DNA from: Halobaculum sp. XH14
Lineage (GTDB): Archaea; Halobacteriota; Halobacteria; Halobacteriales; Haloferacaceae
Assembly: GCF_032116555.1 (NCBI RefSeq)
Contig: NZ_CP134949.1
Location: forward strand, 1,364,001 to 1,428,000
Length of the DNA: 64,000 bases
Reading direction: 5' to 3'
A program made the translations under genes and the position numbers. This document shows positions 28,530 to 35,085 of the stretch, one piece after another; positions within the stretch are counted from its first letter, which is position 1; every line of letters begins with the position of its first letter. Under the pieces are notes generated by a model, which worked only from the letters and a program-made list of their open reading frames with translations, had not been told where the DNA came from and searched no databases.

Positions 28530-30404
28530 TCAGTACGACCGGATCTTCGGCTCGTACTCCTTCTCCTCGCCCTCGAGGATGACCGGGCGGTACCACAGCT
28601 GTGGCGTGCCGTCGTTCCAGGACAACAGCGTGTGCTTTAGCCACTCGTCGTCGTTGCGCTCCTGGAACTCCGCGCGCCAGTGTGCGCCGCGGAACTCCTC
28701 GCGGGCGAGCGCGCCGAGCGTGATCGCCTCGGCCAGATCGAGGATGTTGCGCGTCTCGATCGTCTGGATGAGGTCGGTGTTGAACGTGCGCGAGGGGTCC
28801 TTCACGAACACGTCCTCGTAGCGCTCGCGCGCCTCGCGGACGTCCCGGAGCGACTGCTTCAGCCCCGCCTCCTCGCGGAACACGTTCACGTTCGCGGTCA
28901 TCGACTCCTGGACGTCCGCACGGATCTCGGCGTGCTGGATGCCCTCGTCCTTCTCGAGCAGTTCCTGCACGCGCTCGCGCTCGGTCTCGACCGCCCGTTC
29001 GAGCACGTCGTCGCCCCCGACCGCGGCCGCGTCGGACTCCGTCGCCACGCCGCCGTCGGCCGTGGCGTCGTCCCCGGTCGCCTCGTCCTCGACGCCGGGC
29101 CCCCCGACGGCGCCCGGTTCGACGGGCGTGTCGACCTCACCGAGTTCGTACTCGCCGCGCTGGCCGGTCTCGATCTCGGCCTCGCCCAGATCCTTCCCTG
29201 CCGCGTGCTGGCCGGCGCGCTTGCCGAAGACGATGAGCTCCGGCAGCGCGTTGCCGCCGAGGCGGTTCGACCCGTGGACCGAGGCGCAGGCGCACTCGCC
29301 GGCCGCGTACAGCCCCGAAATACAGGTCTCGCCGTTCTCGTCGGTCTCGATGCCGCCCATCGCGTAGTGCTGGCCGGGCTTGACCGGCATCGGCTCCTCC
29401 AGCCCGTCGACGCCCTCGAAGTCCTCGGCGAGGTGGAGGATGTTCTCCAGGCGGTCGATGATGCGCTCCTCGCCGAGGTGGCGCATGTCGAGGTGGACGT
29501 ACTCGTCCTCGATGCCGCGCCCCGCGTTCACCTCGCTCAACTCGGCGCGGGCGACCACGTCCCGTGAGGCGAGTTCGCCGTCGTTGCTGGCGTAGCCGTA
29601 CTCGAACATGAACCGCTCGCCCTCCGCGTTGTAGAGGATGCCGCCCTCGCCGCGGACGCCCTCGGAGATGAGCACGCCCGTGCTGGGCAGGCTCGTCGGG
29701 TGGAACTGGACGAACTCCATGTCCTCCATCGGGACGCCGGCGCGGTAGGCCATCGCCACGCCGTCGCCGGTGTTGGAGACGGCGTTGGTGGTGTGATCGA
29801 ACACCTGCCCGGGGCCGCCGGTCGCCAGGATGACGCCGTCGTTCGCGCGGAAGCCCGACAGCTCGCCGCTCTGGATGTCGTAGGCGACGACGCCGTGGCA
29901 GCTCCGCTCGGTCGGGTCTTCCTCGTCGGTGACCGCGAGGTTCGAGACGTACCACTCGTCGTAGACGGTGACGCCCCGCTTGACGAGCTGCTCGTACATC
30001 GTGTGGAGCAGCTGGTGGCCGGTTTCCGCGCCGGCGTAGGTGGTGCGGGGGAACGAGAGGCCGCCGAACGGTCGCTGGGAGACGCGGCCGTCCTCGTCCC
30101 GCGAGAAGGCCATGCCCCAGTGTTCGAGCTGGATGACCTCCTCGGGCGAGTCCTGACAGAGCGTCTCGATTGCGGGGGCGTCCCCGAGGTAGTCCGAGCC
30201 CTTCATCGTGTCGTAGGCGTGGTCCTCCCAGGAGTCGCCCTCGCGCAGCGCGGCGTTGATGCCGCCCTCGGCCGCCCCGGTGTGGCTTCGCACCGGGTGT
30301 AGCTTCGAGACGATGGCAACGTCCGCGCCCTCCTCCTGGGCGGCGATGGCAGCGCGGAGCCCCGCGCCGCCTGCGCCGACCACGATGACGTCGTGTTCGT
30401 ACAT
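28530..30404 (-). CDS. sdhA: Succinate dehydrogenase flavoprotein subunit
   Basis: Oxidises succinate to fumarate in complex II. The 624-residue protein has the FAD-binding VIVVGAGGAGLRAAIAA, the covalent-FAD histidine segment RSHTGAAEGGINAAL and the active-site GANRL-equivalent HGSNRLGGNALPELIVFGK. Between the catalytic core and the C-terminal helical domain is an acidic, low-complexity insertion (about residues 420-468, rich in D, G, A and V). It is the last gene of the sdhCDBA operon, 38 bp after sdhB. Confidence 0.96.
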   Translation of the reverse strand: MYEHDVIVVGAGGAGLRAAIAAQEEGADVAIVSKLHPVRSHTGAAEGGINAALREGDSWEDHAYDTMKGSDYLGDAPAIETLCQDSPEEVIQLEHWGMAFSRDEDGRVSQRPFGGLSFPRTTYAGAETGHQLLHTMYEQLVKRGVTVYDEWYVSNLAVTDEEDPTERSCHGVVAYDIQSGELSGFRANDGVILATGGPGQVFDHTTNAVSNTGDGVAMAYRAGVPMEDMEFVQFHPTSLPSTGVLISEGVRGEGGILYNAEGERFMFEYGYASNDGELASRDVVARAELSEVNAGRGIEDEYVHLDMRHLGEERIIDRLENILHLAEDFEGVDGLEEPMPVKPGQHYAMGGIETDENGETCISGLYAAGECACASVHGSNRLGGNALPELIVFGKRAGQHAAGKDLGEAEIETGQRGEYELGEVDTPVEPGAVGGPGVEDEATGDDATADGGVATESDAAAVGGDDVLERAVETERERVQELLEKDEGIQHAEIRADVQESMTANVNVFREEAGLKQSLRDVREARERYEDVFVKDPSRTFNTDLIQTIETRNILDLAEAITLGALAREEFRGAHWRAEFQERNDDEWLKHTLLSWNDGTPQLWYRPVILEGEEKEYEPKIRSY

Positions 30405-30442
30405 TGTGTGTGGTGTGTGTCGGTGGTGGAATTCGTCGGTCG

Positions 30443-31339
30443 TTACCAGAACTGCAGGTTGCTCTTGACGGCCTCGCGCTTCAGCTCCTGGATGTGCTCG
30501 GTGAGCGGGATGTCCTTCGGGCAGACCTCGGTACAGGAGAACTGGGTCTGACACCGCCAGACGCCGTGTTCCTGCTCGATGACGTTGAGCCGGTGTTCCT
30601 TCACGTCCTCGCCCTCGCGCTCGTCCATGGCAAAGCGGTACGCCTTGTTGATGGCCGCGGGGCCGAGATACTCGTTGTCGCCCGCGGCGATGTTACACGA
30701 GGACATGCAGGCGCCACACCAGATACAGCGCGTGGACATCTTCACCTTCTCGCGGTTCTCGGGCGTCTGCCGCTGCTCATCGAGTTCGCCGTCGGGCAGC
30801 TCGTTCGTCTGGAAGAACGGCTCGACGGCCTCCATCTGGTCGTAGAAGTGCTCCATGTCGACGACGAGGTCCTTGCGCACCTCGGCGTGCGGGAGCGGTT
30901 CGACGCGGACCGGGTCCTCGAGGTCCGAGAGCTGGGTCTTGCACCCGAGGCGCTGGCGACCGTTGATGAAGAACGCGTCAGACCCGCAGATCGCCTGCCG
31001 GCAGGAGTGCCGGAACGTGAGCGAGGAGTCGAACGTGTCCCGCGCGTGGATGAGCGCGTCGAGGACGGTCATCCCCTTCTCGAACGGGACGTGGAAGTCG
31101 TCGAAGCGGGGCTCCTGTTTCCCCTCCACCTCGGGGTCGTAGCGGAACACCTTGAGGTGGACCGTGTTCTCCTCGGCCGCGGCCTCCTCCTCGGCGGCCT
31201 CGCGCTCCCGCCGCTCGCGGGCGGCGCGGGCCTCGGCCTTCTTCTCCATCCGCGCCCGCTGGGCGGGCGGGAGCGACTCGGTCGGCTCCGTCTCGACCGC
31301 CTCGGTCTCCGATTCGGTGTCTGGAAGTTGCGTGCTCAT
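30443..31339 (-). CDS. sdhB: Succinate dehydrogenase iron-sulfur subunit
   Basis: Carries electrons from the flavin to quinone through three clusters. In the 298-residue protein the [2Fe-2S] site is SCRQAICGSDAFFINGRQRL plus the following GC, the [4Fe-4S] site is CIWCGACMSSCN and the [3Fe-4S] site is CQTQFSCTEVCPKDIP. A charged N-terminal extension of about 60 residues (rich in E, A and R) precedes the ferredoxin domain and is longer than in bacterial SdhB. The gap to sdhD is two bases. Confidence 0.96.
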   Translation of the reverse strand: MSTQLPDTESETEAVETEPTESLPPAQRARMEKKAEARAARERREREAAEEEAAAEENTVHLKVFRYDPEVEGKQEPRFDDFHVPFEKGMTVLDALIHARDTFDSSLTFRHSCRQAICGSDAFFINGRQRLGCKTQLSDLEDPVRVEPLPHAEVRKDLVVDMEHFYDQMEAVEPFFQTNELPDGELDEQRQTPENREKVKMSTRCIWCGACMSSCNIAAGDNEYLGPAAINKAYRFAMDEREGEDVKEHRLNVIEQEHGVWRCQTQFSCTEVCPKDIPLTEHIQELKREAVKSNLQFW

Positions 31340-31341
31340 TG

Positions 31342-31713
31342 TTAGAACGTCGGGAAGCCGGCCCACGCGTTCGCGGTGCGGATCCCTTGCACGACGAGGA
31401 TCGCGCTAGCGAGCACGAGGACGTACTTGACGACCCGTTTCCTGGTTCCGGTAAGCCCCTGGTTGACGAGCGCGTTGTAGACGCCGTTCACGCCGTGGAA
31501 CGTCGCCGTCACGAGGAACAGCACCATCAGCGAGTAGTAGGTGAGATCCTGCATCCGGATGCTCGACGCCATGAACGTCACCTCGTCGGCGTGGTTCACG
31601 AAGTGGAGCAGGAAGAAGTGGAACGCGAGCACCACGACGAGGAACGCCGCGGTGATGCGCTGCCAGAGCCAGCGGCGGCCGCCGCGCTCGAACGAGGAGT
31701 AGCGCTCGGCCAT
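31342..31713 (-). CDS. sdhD: Succinate dehydrogenase membrane anchor subunit
   Basis: A 123-residue integral membrane subunit with three predicted helices (about ITAAFLVVVLAFHFFLLHFV, YYSLMVLFLVTATFHGVNGV and VLVLASAILVVQGI). It anchors SdhAB and helps form the quinone site; histidines in the first and second helices could ligate heme. Its ATG overlaps the stop of sdhC by one base (TGATG at 31711-31715), so the two are coupled. Confidence 0.9.
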   Translation of the reverse strand: MAERYSSFERGGRRWLWQRITAAFLVVVLAFHFFLLHFVNHADEVTFMASSIRMQDLTYYSLMVLFLVTATFHGVNGVYNALVNQGLTGTRKRVVKYVLVLASAILVVQGIRTANAWAGFPTF

Positions 31714-32108
31714 CAGCCGAACACCCCCGAGAGGAACGTCGGCACCGACGCCACGACGATCGCCCCCGTCAGCACCAGCGACGCGTAGAAGCTCCGGTCC
31801 TGTGCGTCGAGGCCGACCCCCAGGTCCACGAACAGCAGACGGACGCCGTTCAGGATGTGGAAGACGGCGACCGCGAGCAGCCCGATCTCGAGGAAGCGTA
31901 CGACGAGCAGCGACTCCAGCCCCTGGATCGTGGTCGTGTACGCCGCCTCGCTGGACGTCGCGGTACTCAACACGGCGATGTGGGTGAAGAGGTAGCCCAC
32001 GAGCACCCAGCCCGTGAACTTGTGGAACACCCAGGCCCACATGCCCGCCGAGAACTCCCGCCACCGGCCGAAGTCCTCGACGAGGCCCCTGTCGTACGAC
32101 TGGCTCAT
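31713..32108 (-). CDS. sdhC: Succinate dehydrogenase cytochrome b subunit
   Basis: A 131-residue membrane subunit of complex II and the first gene of the operon. Three hydrophobic helices are visible, and [20 protein letters not shown] has the cytochrome b556 pattern with a likely heme-ligand histidine; [10 protein letters not shown] in the second helix is also conserved in the family. A good TATA-like box lies about 27 nt upstream. Confidence 0.92.
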
Positions 32109-32133
32109 GCGTGGTCGTGGCTCGGTCCCAAGG

Positions 32134-32143
32134 GGGTATAGTA
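32134..32143 (-). promoter_or_regulatory. TATA-like box of the sdhCDBA operon
   Basis: On the minus strand ACTATACCCC lies about 26-35 nt before the sdhC ATG at 32108. Confidence 0.55.
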
Positions 32144-32242
32144 GTTACGTGTACGGCAGCGTGGGCGTGGGGTTGGAACCGTTCGCGGACGCGGTCCCGT
32201 CCCGCGCGACGTCGCGAACGCGTTCGCGGGTCGCCGACGCGG

Positions 32243-33268
32243 TCACGTTTCGCCCGTCCCGTTCGGCGACTGCTGGCGCTCGAGGACCCGGCGGGTGCGC
32301 TCGTCGAGTTCCACGAGGTGACACAGCGGGTTCCCCGGGTAGACGACCGGGTTCTCGAGCATTCCCACGAGCACGCCGGTGAACGGCGCCTCCACGCGAA
32401 CGGCGTCGTGCTTGAACGGGTCGCTGACGGTGCAGACGACGTCGCCCTCGTGGACGAGCGCGCCGCGGTCGAAGTGCATGTCCACGATGCCGCCGGCGTC
32501 CGCGCGGATCCACGTCTTCTCGCCCGACCCGGAGATGACCGTCCGCCAGCCGGGCCAGCGGACCGACCCCGTCTCCCGGAGGCCGAACTCCGCGAAGACG
32601 CTCAGGACGCCTTCGAGGGCGTCGTCGATGAGCGGGCGCTGGAACCGGTGGGCCTCGCCCATCTCCACGGTGATGGTCGGCGTGTCCACCGCGGCCGCCT
32701 CCACGCGCAACATCCCGGAACTCCCCTCGCTGTCGATGATGACGTTCGTCCCGTACGCGCGGGCGACCCGGGCGACCGCCGGATCGGACATGTCGGCGCG
32801 GACGTGGAGCATGTTCGTCCGACCCCGCGTCGAGGTGTGGAAGTCGAGGCCGATGTCGCAGGGTTCGATGAAGTTCCGGAAGATGCGGTCGGCCATCCGC
32901 TTGGCGCTCGTGGAGTCGGCCGCGCCAGGGAACGACCGGTTCAGGTCGCGGTCGTACACCGGCAGGTAGCGCTGCTGGGCGAGGAACCCGGGAACGTTCA
33001 ACACGGGCAGACAGACCAGCGTGCCCGCGAGGTCCGAGAGATCCCACTCGTGGGCGACCTCCCTGACCACCTCGATGCCGTTGAGTTCGTCGCCGTGTGC
33101 GGCCGCCGAGAGGAACGCCGTCGGCCCGTCGCGCTCGCCGTTGACGATCGTCACGGGGATCCTGACCGGGTCGCCGAGGTACGTCTCGCTCACCACGAAC
33201 CGCAGGTTCCGTCGCTCGCCGGGTTCCACCGTCCCCCCGTCGTAGGTGAACGCCCCGTCCTCGCTCAT
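32243..33268 (-). CDS. AspA/AstE-like zinc deacylase (succinylglutamate desuccinylase/aspartoacylase family)
   Basis: A 341-residue M14-fold metallo-enzyme expected to hydrolyse an N-acyl or peptide-like amide. Zinc ligands are in AAAHGDELNGIEVV (His58, Glu61) and GLDFHTSTRGR (His144); substrate-binding DLNRSFPG (108-115) and catalytic Glu in TVEMGEAHRF are present. A C-terminal barrel (HFDRGALVHEGDVVCTV) is lipoyl-like. It is divergent from a RimK-retropepsin fusion gene with separate TATA-like boxes; similar AspA-like genes accompany RimK genes in bacteria, so both may act on one substrate. The ATG at 33268 lies 27 nt after CCCTTTTTAC. Confidence 0.85.
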   Translation of the reverse strand: MSEDGAFTYDGGTVEPGERRNLRFVVSETYLGDPVRIPVTIVNGERDGPTAFLSAAAHGDELNGIEVVREVAHEWDLSDLAGTLVCLPVLNVPGFLAQQRYLPVYDRDLNRSFPGAADSTSAKRMADRIFRNFIEPCDIGLDFHTSTRGRTNMLHVRADMSDPAVARVARAYGTNVIIDSEGSSGMLRVEAAAVDTPTITVEMGEAHRFQRPLIDDALEGVLSVFAEFGLRETGSVRWPGWRTVISGSGEKTWIRADAGGIVDMHFDRGALVHEGDVVCTVSDPFKHDAVRVEAPFTGVLVGMLENPVVYPGNPLCHLVELDERTRRVLERQQSPNGTGET

Positions 33269-33290
33269 ACCCGGAGGTGGACGGCGGATG

Positions 33291-33415
33291 GTAAAAAGGG
33301 TGCACGCCGGAACGACCCAGTCGTCCCGACGACGACGGTCGATCGGGAGTCGCTCCGTCCGGCGCGTGCCGTCCTCACAGCCCACGGGGGCCGATTCGAC
33401 CGGGACCTCTTTACT
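33291..33415. promoter_or_regulatory. Divergent promoters between AspA-like and RimK-fusion genes
   Basis: CCCTTTTTAC on the minus strand (33291-33300) serves the deacylase start at 33268. CTCTTTACT on the plus strand (33407-33415) serves the RimK-fusion ATG at 33437. Both have leaderless spacing. Confidence 0.45.
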
Positions 33416-33436
33416 CGCGCCGAGTGACCGTTTCGT

Positions 33437-34795
33437 ATGGACGAGGACCCGGTTCGCGTGGGCGTGCTCGCGCTCCACACGAGCAAGGAGTCGAAGGCGA
33501 TCTGCAACGCGGTCGAGGACCTGGGACACGAGCCGGAGTGGCTGCGCGAGGAGAACGCGTCGGTCAGCATCGCGGAGGGCGCGGTCGAACTGGAGCCGGA
33601 CGTCGACGTGGTCGCCAACCGGATGCTGCTCTCGAACACCGAGGAGCCGGCCGAGGGCCTCGGGCTCGCGGGGACGTTCGCGCGGGCGCGGCCGACCCTG
33701 AACCCGCCCGAGGCGGTGCTCACCGCGGTCCACAAGTTCGCCACGGCGGTCGCGCTCTCGGAGGCGGGCATCCGCGTCCCGGATGCGCTGCTGGCGCTCT
33801 CGAACGCGCGGCTCAACGACGGCCGGGAGCGGTTCGCCCCCGAGGGCGTGTACAAGACCGCCATCGGCACCCACGGCGGCGGCACCTGGAAGCTGGACCT
33901 CCGCGAGCCGGTGAACCCGATGGTCGGCAAGCGGCAGGCGTTCCTGCAACAGCTCATCGACCGCGACGAGACGCGTCACCACGACACCCGCGTGTACGTC
34001 GTCGATGACGAGGTCGTCGGCGCGATGAACCGGTACGCCCCGGAGGGCGACTGGCGAACCAACGTCGCGCTCGGCGGCGACGTCGAGGACGCGACCGACT
34101 CGCTCCCCGGGGAAGCCCGCGAGATGGCGCTCGCGGCGACCGACACGGTCGGGCTCGACTACGCGGGCGTCGACCTCGTGCAGGGGTACGACGGCTGGTA
34201 CGTGCTCGAAGTCAACCCGACCGCGGGGTTCAAAGGGCTGTTCAGGGCGACGGGCCGCTCGCCCGCCCCTCACATCGCAAAGCTCGCCATCGAGCGCGGC
34301 GGCGGCAGCGTCGACGACGAGCGCGTCGCCGAACTGACCGCCGTGCTCGACGACTCGCGCCCCTCGTGCATGCCGTCGCTCGCCCAGCAGCGGCCGAAGG
34401 ACACGCCGCTGATCGGGTACATCGAGGAGGTCGTCGTCGCCGGCACCCGGGGCTCGACGCAGGCGTTCGCCAAGTCCGACACCGGCGCGACCCGCTCGTC
34501 GATCGACACGAAGCTCGCCGCCGAGATCGGCGCTGGCCCAATCAAGAGCATGACACGCGTGAAATCCGGGAGCGTCAAGCGCGGGAAGGCGCGTCCGGTC
34601 GTCGACCTCGTCATCGGCATCGGCGGCGACCAGCACACCGTCACCGCGAGCATCGAGGACCGCTCGCACATGGAGTACCCGCTGTTGCTCGGCCGGGACA
34701 TCCTTGAACACTACCGGGTCGACGTACGGCGTCGAGCGGACGAGTCCCGGAACCGCGAGCGCGACGAGGAGGAGGAGGAGACAGGCGAGGAGTAA
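33437..34795 (+). CDS. rimK: RimK-family ATP-grasp ligase fused to retropepsin-like (RimK-associated 'zinc protease') domain
   Basis: A 452-residue two-domain protein. Residues about 1-290 are a RimK-type ATP-grasp amidoligase: GVYKTAIGTHGGGTWKLDL (Lys140 and the glycine-rich loop) and the metal/ATP end VDLVQGYDGWYVLEVNPTAG (Asp247, Glu258, Asn260). Residues about 322-432 match the RimK-associated aspartic-protease-like domain (PF05618): FAKSDTGATRSSID (DTG at 348-350) and HMEYPLLLGRDILEHYRVD. The two are usually separate genes in bacteria. The C-terminus is Glu-rich. Substrate unknown; possibly protein or cofactor glutamylation. Confidence 0.85.
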   Translation: MDEDPVRVGVLALHTSKESKAICNAVEDLGHEPEWLREENASVSIAEGAVELEPDVDVVANRMLLSNTEEPAEGLGLAGTFARARPTLNPPEAVLTAVHKFATAVALSEAGIRVPDALLALSNARLNDGRERFAPEGVYKTAIGTHGGGTWKLDLREPVNPMVGKRQAFLQQLIDRDETRHHDTRVYVVDDEVVGAMNRYAPEGDWRTNVALGGDVEDATDSLPGEAREMALAATDTVGLDYAGVDLVQGYDGWYVLEVNPTAGFKGLFRATGRSPAPHIAKLAIERGGGSVDDERVAELTAVLDDSRPSCMPSLAQQRPKDTPLIGYIEEVVVAGTRGSTQAFAKSDTGATRSSIDTKLAAEIGAGPIKSMTRVKSGSVKRGKARPVVDLVIGIGGDQHTVTASIEDRSHMEYPLLLGRDILEHYRVDVRRRADESRNRERDEEEEETGEE

Positions 34796-34890: not shown

Positions 34891-35085
34891 ATGGGCTTCG
34901 GTAGCTACGACGAATCCGAGCAGGAACGGAAGCAGTCAGGCGACGGCCCCGGCGACGAGGCGACCGTCGACGCACACGAGAACGAACACGAGGGGGAGAT
35001 GACGTTCGACACGGGCGCGTCGACCGACGACCTCGTCTCGAAGCTGCAGGAGATGAAGGACGACCCCGACGCGGACGAGGAGTGA
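34891..35085 (+). CDS. DUF5786-like small acidic protein
   Basis: A 64-residue very acidic protein starting MGFGSYDESEQERK, with a C-terminal helix (STDDLVSKLQEMKDD). I recall it as the conserved haloarchaeal family DUF5786, of unknown function. It has its own upstream CCCCTTTTCC stretch about 30 nt before the ATG, so it is likely transcribed independently of the rimK fusion gene. Confidence 0.82.
   Translation: MGFGSYDESEQERKQSGDGPGDEATVDAHENEHEGEMTFDTGASTDDLVSKLQEMKDDPDADEE

Follow-up and report, generated by a model that had tools for sequence, protein, structure and literature searches.

We propose that a RimK-retropepsin fusion protein and a divergently encoded zinc deacylase may form a self-contained reversible poly-alpha-L-glutamylation module in Halobaculum sp. 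XH14, in which the fusion would modify its own C-terminal tail, its retropepsin domain would cut the added chain and the deacylase would trim it. We put the probability of this reading, in which all activities are predicted ones, at about 45%. That the fusion both ligates and cuts poly-alpha-glutamate on a C-terminal Glu acceptor of some kind is probable. The two genes were found in the window, i.e. the whole 64,000 nt stretch of DNA analysed here.

The fusion (P0001) is a 452 aa protein encoded at 33437-34795 on the plus strand, as defined by its open reading frame and Pfam matches. Along this strand it consists of a RimK-type ATP-grasp ligase domain (residues 6-290, 33452-34306), an interdomain linker (residues 291-324, 34307-34408) which in the structure model includes a low-confidence segment at residues 317-320, a RimB/RloA-like retropepsin domain (residues 325-433, 34409-34735) with the catalytic DTG at residues 348-350 (34478-34486), and a Glu-rich, non-alignable C-terminal tail (residues 434-452, 34736-34792), which is our proposed acceptor and ends in a conserved Glu-Glu (34787-34792). 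The deacylase (P0002), a 341 aa protein of the AspA/AstE family, is encoded on the minus strand at 32243-33268, and both genes share a divergent intergenic region of 168 bp (33269-33436). Downstream of the deacylase and on the same strand lies sdhC-D-B-A (28530-32108), a context with conserved synteny. The deacylase directly precedes these four genes on the same strand (28530-33268 in the window) in most of the haloarchaeal families sampled, and the succinate dehydrogenase operon may begin with it. Beyond the fusion, at 34891-35085, is the gene for DUF5786, a 64 aa acidic haloarchaeal protein ending in DADEE. We considered DUF5786 as a substrate and rejected it, as it is present in 191 of 195 genomes, including those that lack the module, and adjoins the fusion only in this lineage. 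Among the more complete haloarchaeal genomes it was found in 157 of 157, again with module-less ones included, and there are often two to four copies per haloarchaeal genome.

The ligase domain matches PF08443 (RimK) at residues 100-275 with 87.1 bits against a cut-off of 21 (E 1.5e-24). In the AlphaFold2 model of the fusion (mean pLDDT 87) the fold of this domain is close to RimK 5zct (Z 29.3, 278 residues aligned, 2.5 A) and to P. aeruginosa RimK 7qyr (Z 29.1), and ArgX 3vpb is as close as RimK (Z 29.3). The residues R62, K100, K140, R185, D246, E258 and N260 are invariant in all 124 orthologues, and S66 is kept in 118 of them. The first-pass annotation had listed the ATP-grasp residues as Lys140, Asp247, Glu258 and Asn260; three of these are as claimed, while the Asp, which belongs to the metal site, is residue 246. 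When aligned to P. aeruginosa RimK through Vibrionaceae RimK, R62, S66, R185 and N260 of the fusion correspond to R64, S68, R189 and N262, which contact the Glu chain (PMC10092738). R8 of the Glu site in P. aeruginosa RimK is replaced, by L13 in the fusion and by Leu in 117 of the 124 orthologues. The subfamily profile TIGR00768 is narrowly missed (139.6 bits against a cut-off of 143.4), and the identities LysX (86.9 against 275.6), MptN for methanopterin (110.7 against 350) and CofF for F420 (51.3 against 300) were rejected, as these scores are far under the equivalog cut-offs. The E. coli-type RimK profile gave 62.1 bits, which is below both MptN and LysX.

For the C-terminal domain, residues 320-434 were folded and searched alone. 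The resulting model (pLDDT 87.3) has a retropepsin fold, with structure matches to 2pma (Z 13.7), RloA2 (13.4), RloA (12.7) and EIAV protease (11.9), and Foldseek matched it to 9g59 (E 1.2e-7). PF05618 matches residues 371-433 of the full-length fusion at 39.5 bits and the domain alone at 45.0 bits, both against a cut-off of 27, and 40 of 40 members match. The domain, which contains LLLGRDILEHY, keeps K346, D348, G350, R386 and R409 in all 124 orthologues and T349 in 123. A PF05618-like C-terminal domain with DTG at 348-350, as first annotated, is thus confirmed by both sequence and fold. Further, K346, R386 and R409 align with K46, R114 and R137 of RloA, which coordinate poly-Glu and matter for cleavage, with the strongest effects seen for R114A and R137A (PMC12239564). 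RimB and RloA belong to the retropepsin-like aspartic proteases (PMC11957791, PMC12239564), so that Pfam's name for the family, 'ATP-dependent zinc protease', misleads. Both active sites of the fusion look working, as predicted from these conserved residues, and poly-Glu specificity seems better supported for the protease domain than for the ligase domain.

The conserved Glu-Glu tail is a feature absent from the first-pass annotation. Among the orthologues it extends for about 7 to 27 non-alignable residues after the retropepsin domain, and 93 of the 124 chains have Glu-Glu at their end, with the last residue being Glu in 111 and Asp in none. Asp is absent from both of the final two positions, though at the positions before them its share is 6-29%. 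Among 186 other genes from the window and the 14-kb loci, which served as background, a Glu-Glu end occurs in 2, a final Glu in 22 and a final Asp in 18, and seven other conserved gene families of the loci never end in Glu-Glu. Parsimony on a tree of the fusion protein core counted 10 changes at position -1 and 18 at -2, against 34-64 at -3 to -15 and a median of 8 for a core column. The divergent fusion paralogues mostly end in Glu-Glu as well (11 of 13), on very short tails. On the other hand, 31 of the 124 orthologues do not end in Glu-Glu and 13 do not end in Glu, and in a haloarchaeal family with genomes of ~1 Mb (L099, L101, L102) the fusion is kept but tail-less, its chain stopping where the retropepsin domain stops; DUF5786 was not seen in this reduced-genome family. 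The Glu-Glu end is absent from the bacterial RimK, RimB and deacylase and from the two RimBK hybrids examined. E. coli S6, a substrate of RimK, ends in GDSEE (PMC11957791, Table 1). S6 was not found in 20 of 20 haloarchaeal relatives, while control bacteria gave S6 matches. We suggest that the tail carries the likely acceptor, an S6-like C-terminal Glu-Glu.

The divergent gene was first annotated as a zinc deacylase with HGDE, DLNR and DFH motifs, and this holds: the protein matches PF24827 (AstE_AspA_cat) at 157.8 bits against a cut-off of 25 (E 3e-46), and all three motifs are present, along with E202. H58 and E61 of HGDE, N110 and R111 of DLNR (residues 108-111) and H144 of DFH are invariant in 20 deacylase homologues, bacterial ones included; H58, E61 and H144 are the zinc ligands. 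The protein thus shares its catalytic domain and zinc motifs with DoeB, AspA and AstE, and is closest to DoeB, an N-acetyl-diaminobutyrate deacetylase, but it falls far below every equivalog cut-off (DoeB 101 against 402.7, aspartoacylase 33.2 against 180, AstE 18.3 against 305.65) and differs from these enzymes in being linked to a RimK-RimB system. Its identity to the Salinivibrio deacylase, which is encoded in a rimB-rimK-deacylase operon, is 36-38%. Enzymes of the AspA/AstE type split an acyl group from an amino acid whose alpha-carboxylate is free.

To follow the two genes through the haloarchaea we surveyed 195 genomes of the order, with matches taken at E<1e-100. In the 167 genomes that are at least 90% complete, both genes are present in 149, neither in 17 and the fusion alone in none, while the remaining one (G167, locus L107) has an intact deacylase beside a fusion remnant covering residues 2-70. 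The co-occurrence has a Fisher p of 2.4e-22, with genomes counted without correction for relatedness. Hence the deacylase and the fusion stay together in other haloarchaea and are lost together, and as the losses are scattered across several families, several independent co-losses are likely. Orthologues in 149 of 167 genomes and the invariant catalytic residues argue that the locus is not due to chance. In 111 of 111 loci holding both genes these are divergent, with a gap of 80-265 bp in 101. Nine loci have an insertion of ~2.7-3.1 kb between the deacylase and the fusion; where inspected they belong to family f7, and the insertion there encodes a GNAT-like and a flippase-like protein (L041:5357-7949, L051:7400-10068). 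Two genomes that are otherwise complete, the above G167 and G172 (L106), carry a decaying fusion, which in the latter is a fragment of residues 335-440 with two stops. Plasmid-borne paralogues of the fusion were seen beside universal stress protein genes (L184, L267) and beside a deacylase and a succinate-semialdehyde dehydrogenase (L269). Elsewhere in the phylum the fusion was found in none of 242 non-haloarchaeal genomes at E<=1e-40, with 47 sampled haloarchaea positive, and the PF05618 proteins listed for methanogens lie in short frames (about 100-310 aa) and are presumably free-standing. Among laboratory haloarchaea, Haloferax volcanii has a PF05618 gene, which may be this fusion.

The first-pass annotation had stated a co-occurrence of RimK, PF05618 and AspA-like genes in bacteria, and we find rimB-rimK-deacylase operons in both gamma- and alphaproteobacteria. 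With a deacylase alignment that had the Salinivibrio sequence at its head we scanned species genomes of bacteria and archaea, and the best 80 loci, which were all from gammaproteobacteria, were kept. Among these best 80, rimB, rimK and the deacylase stand in a row on one strand in 49, and rimK is adjacent in 55. The operon is annotated in Salinivibrio kushneri, and the alphaproteobacterium Phaeobacter inhibens has the same order, while in Vibrio nigripulchritudo the order is rimK-deacylase-rimB, on a conjugative plasmid. Members of the deacylase family without rimK or rimB within 4 kb make up 25 of the best 80 gammaproteobacterial loci (L193-L199 and others). A mechanosensitive channel, hinted at as a regular neighbour by Salinivibrio and V. 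nigripulchritudo, was rejected with 1 of the best 80 loci. The operons of Vibrionales, Pseudoalteromonas, Phaeobacter and others have the same three activities as the haloarchaeal locus, but as three co-directional unfused genes in variable order and with an S6-type RimK, whereas the haloarchaeal genes are fused and divergent. The haloarchaeal locus is this proteobacterial system of three parts, two of them joined in one protein and the remaining gene inverted, and the link of the deacylase to RimK-RimB thus spans two domains of life.

Like the fusion, the RimB-RimK (RimABK) system of Pseudomonas has an ATP-grasp alpha-glutamate ligase and a DTG retropepsin with conserved poly-Glu-binding residues. 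In Pseudomonas these are separate genes with S6 as the known substrate, whereas in the haloarchaea we find one polypeptide that carries a Glu-Glu tail, no S6, and a deacylase as partner. Bacterial fusions of RimB and RimK, with the two domains the other way round, have been published before, a fact which the first-pass annotation missed (PMC11957791). The RimBK hybrid of Desulfotalea psychrophila has both domains in one chain as the haloarchaeal fusion does; it cut poly-Glu and did not glutamylate the S6 tested (PMC11957791). In such hybrids (Little et al. 2025) RimB is N-terminal to RimK, whereas the retropepsin of the haloarchaeal fusion is C-terminal, and the annotated RimBK of Thioclava and Aureibacter are without the Glu-Glu terminus and the adjacent deacylase. 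The RloA retropepsins share the fold and the equivalents of K46, R114 and R137 (PMC12239564), but are secreted and have RloB and RloC as partners, whereas the fusion is presumably cytoplasmic and joined to a ligase. The open-access literature searched (subscription journals and preprints were outside the scope) yielded nothing on an archaeal RimK-retropepsin fusion or an archaeal poly-glutamylation system, and did not mention a link of the deacylase to RimK-RimB. Judged by this literature, what is new is that the domain order is reversed, that the fusion occurs almost throughout the haloarchaea, that it has a conserved Glu-Glu end and that a deacylase joins as third partner.

In the mechanism we propose, the ATP-grasp domain would attach L-Glu to a Glu at a C-terminus, which is the reaction of RimK on bacterial S6. 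The most likely acceptor would be the Glu-Glu tail of the fusion itself, either in cis or between the chains of an oligomer. Once the chain was about six to eight Glu long, the retropepsin domain, presumably as a dimer, would cut it, freeing oligo-Glu and leaving a short stub. The Glu run needed for cutting is five to six for RimB and more than six for RloA (PMC11957791, PMC12239564), and about four Glu stay on S6 after RimB has cut (PMC10092738). The zinc deacylase from the divergent gene would take the terminal Glu, which is beyond the reach of the endoprotease, off the stub or the released oligomers, a putative role that draws on knowledge of its family. A make-and-remove system, as already suggested in the first-pass annotation, seems the likeliest reading given the gene linkage, the co-loss and the bacterial operons, with its activity and substrate standing as predictions; the further argument that the fusion would force a 1:1 ratio of ligase and processing domain adds little. 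Self-acceptance as a step taken alone we suggest tentatively, at somewhat less than even odds. Counted against the proposed mechanism as a whole are the tail-less members, the 31 of 124 orthologues without Glu-Glu, the change of R8 to Leu, the behaviour of the D. psychrophila RimBK and the missed TIGR00768 cut-off. We further speculate that the fusion might be a self-priming poly-alpha-glutamate synthase, with a polymer grown on its own Glu-Glu, cut by itself, and the stub or oligomers passed to the deacylase, although we regard this as doubtful. Glycogenin, which primes glycogen, offers an analogy.

Much of the data would also be explained if the fusion modified another protein in trans and its own Glu-Glu tail were a regulatory pseudo-substrate lodged in the active site of the ligase or of the protease. 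Every RimK-RimB system characterised so far has a separate protein as its target (PMC11957791, PMC7343187), crystals show poly-Glu of 3-5 residues in the RimK active site (PMC10092738), and tail-less members exist. Encoded Glu runs in the tail are six or fewer in 118 of 124 orthologues, which is near or below the cutting length of RimB and RloA and is expected if the tail must not be cut. However, S6 was not found in the 20 haloarchaeal relatives, and neither was a candidate partner, DUF5786 being present also in module-less genomes and not adjacent elsewhere. A trans substrate with a regulatory tail seems to us somewhat unlikely.

It is less probable still that the ligase builds a small amide, such as a glutamylated cofactor or an acyl-amino-acid dipeptide, which the deacylase hydrolyses. 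The RimK relatives MptN and CofF do glutamylate cofactors, the MptN and LysX profiles score above the E. coli-type RimK (110.7 and 86.9 against 62.1 bits), and DoeB is the closest relative of the deacylase, but the equivalog cut-offs of MptN, CofF, LysX and DoeB are all widely missed, and the fused poly-Glu-type retropepsin along with the bacterial operons with S6-type RimK indicate a peptide substrate. We find it highly improbable that the C-terminal Glu is a built-in amino-group carrier like LysW, with the ligase loading its side-chain carboxylate and the deacylase freeing the product. Such carriers are loaded on a C-terminal Glu (PMC9303977), the fold of ArgX is as close as that of RimK (Z 29.3 for both), and a zinc hydrolase adjoins the fusion gene. 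Still, the LysX equivalog scores 86.9 against a cut-off of 275.6, the bacterial operon partners are RimB and S6-type RimK and not Lys/Arg genes, and the conserved poly-Glu-coordinating residues of the protease would be left without a role.

Bacteria are known to tune their ribosomes by reversible C-terminal glutamylation of S6, and to our knowledge archaea have no S6. For the reversible poly-alpha-L-glutamylation module that we favour there is one specific candidate substrate, the enzyme itself, which is near-universal in haloarchaea, has both activities by prediction and ends in an S6-like Glu-Glu. The zinc deacylase appears as a third, apparently undiscussed partner of RimK and RimB in archaea and proteobacteria alike, and as RimB leaves about four Glu on S6, an enzyme that removes this stub would close the cycle. 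A self-priming synthase, if true, would be the first system for poly-alpha-glutamylation in archaea, as well as the first RimK with its substrate built in.
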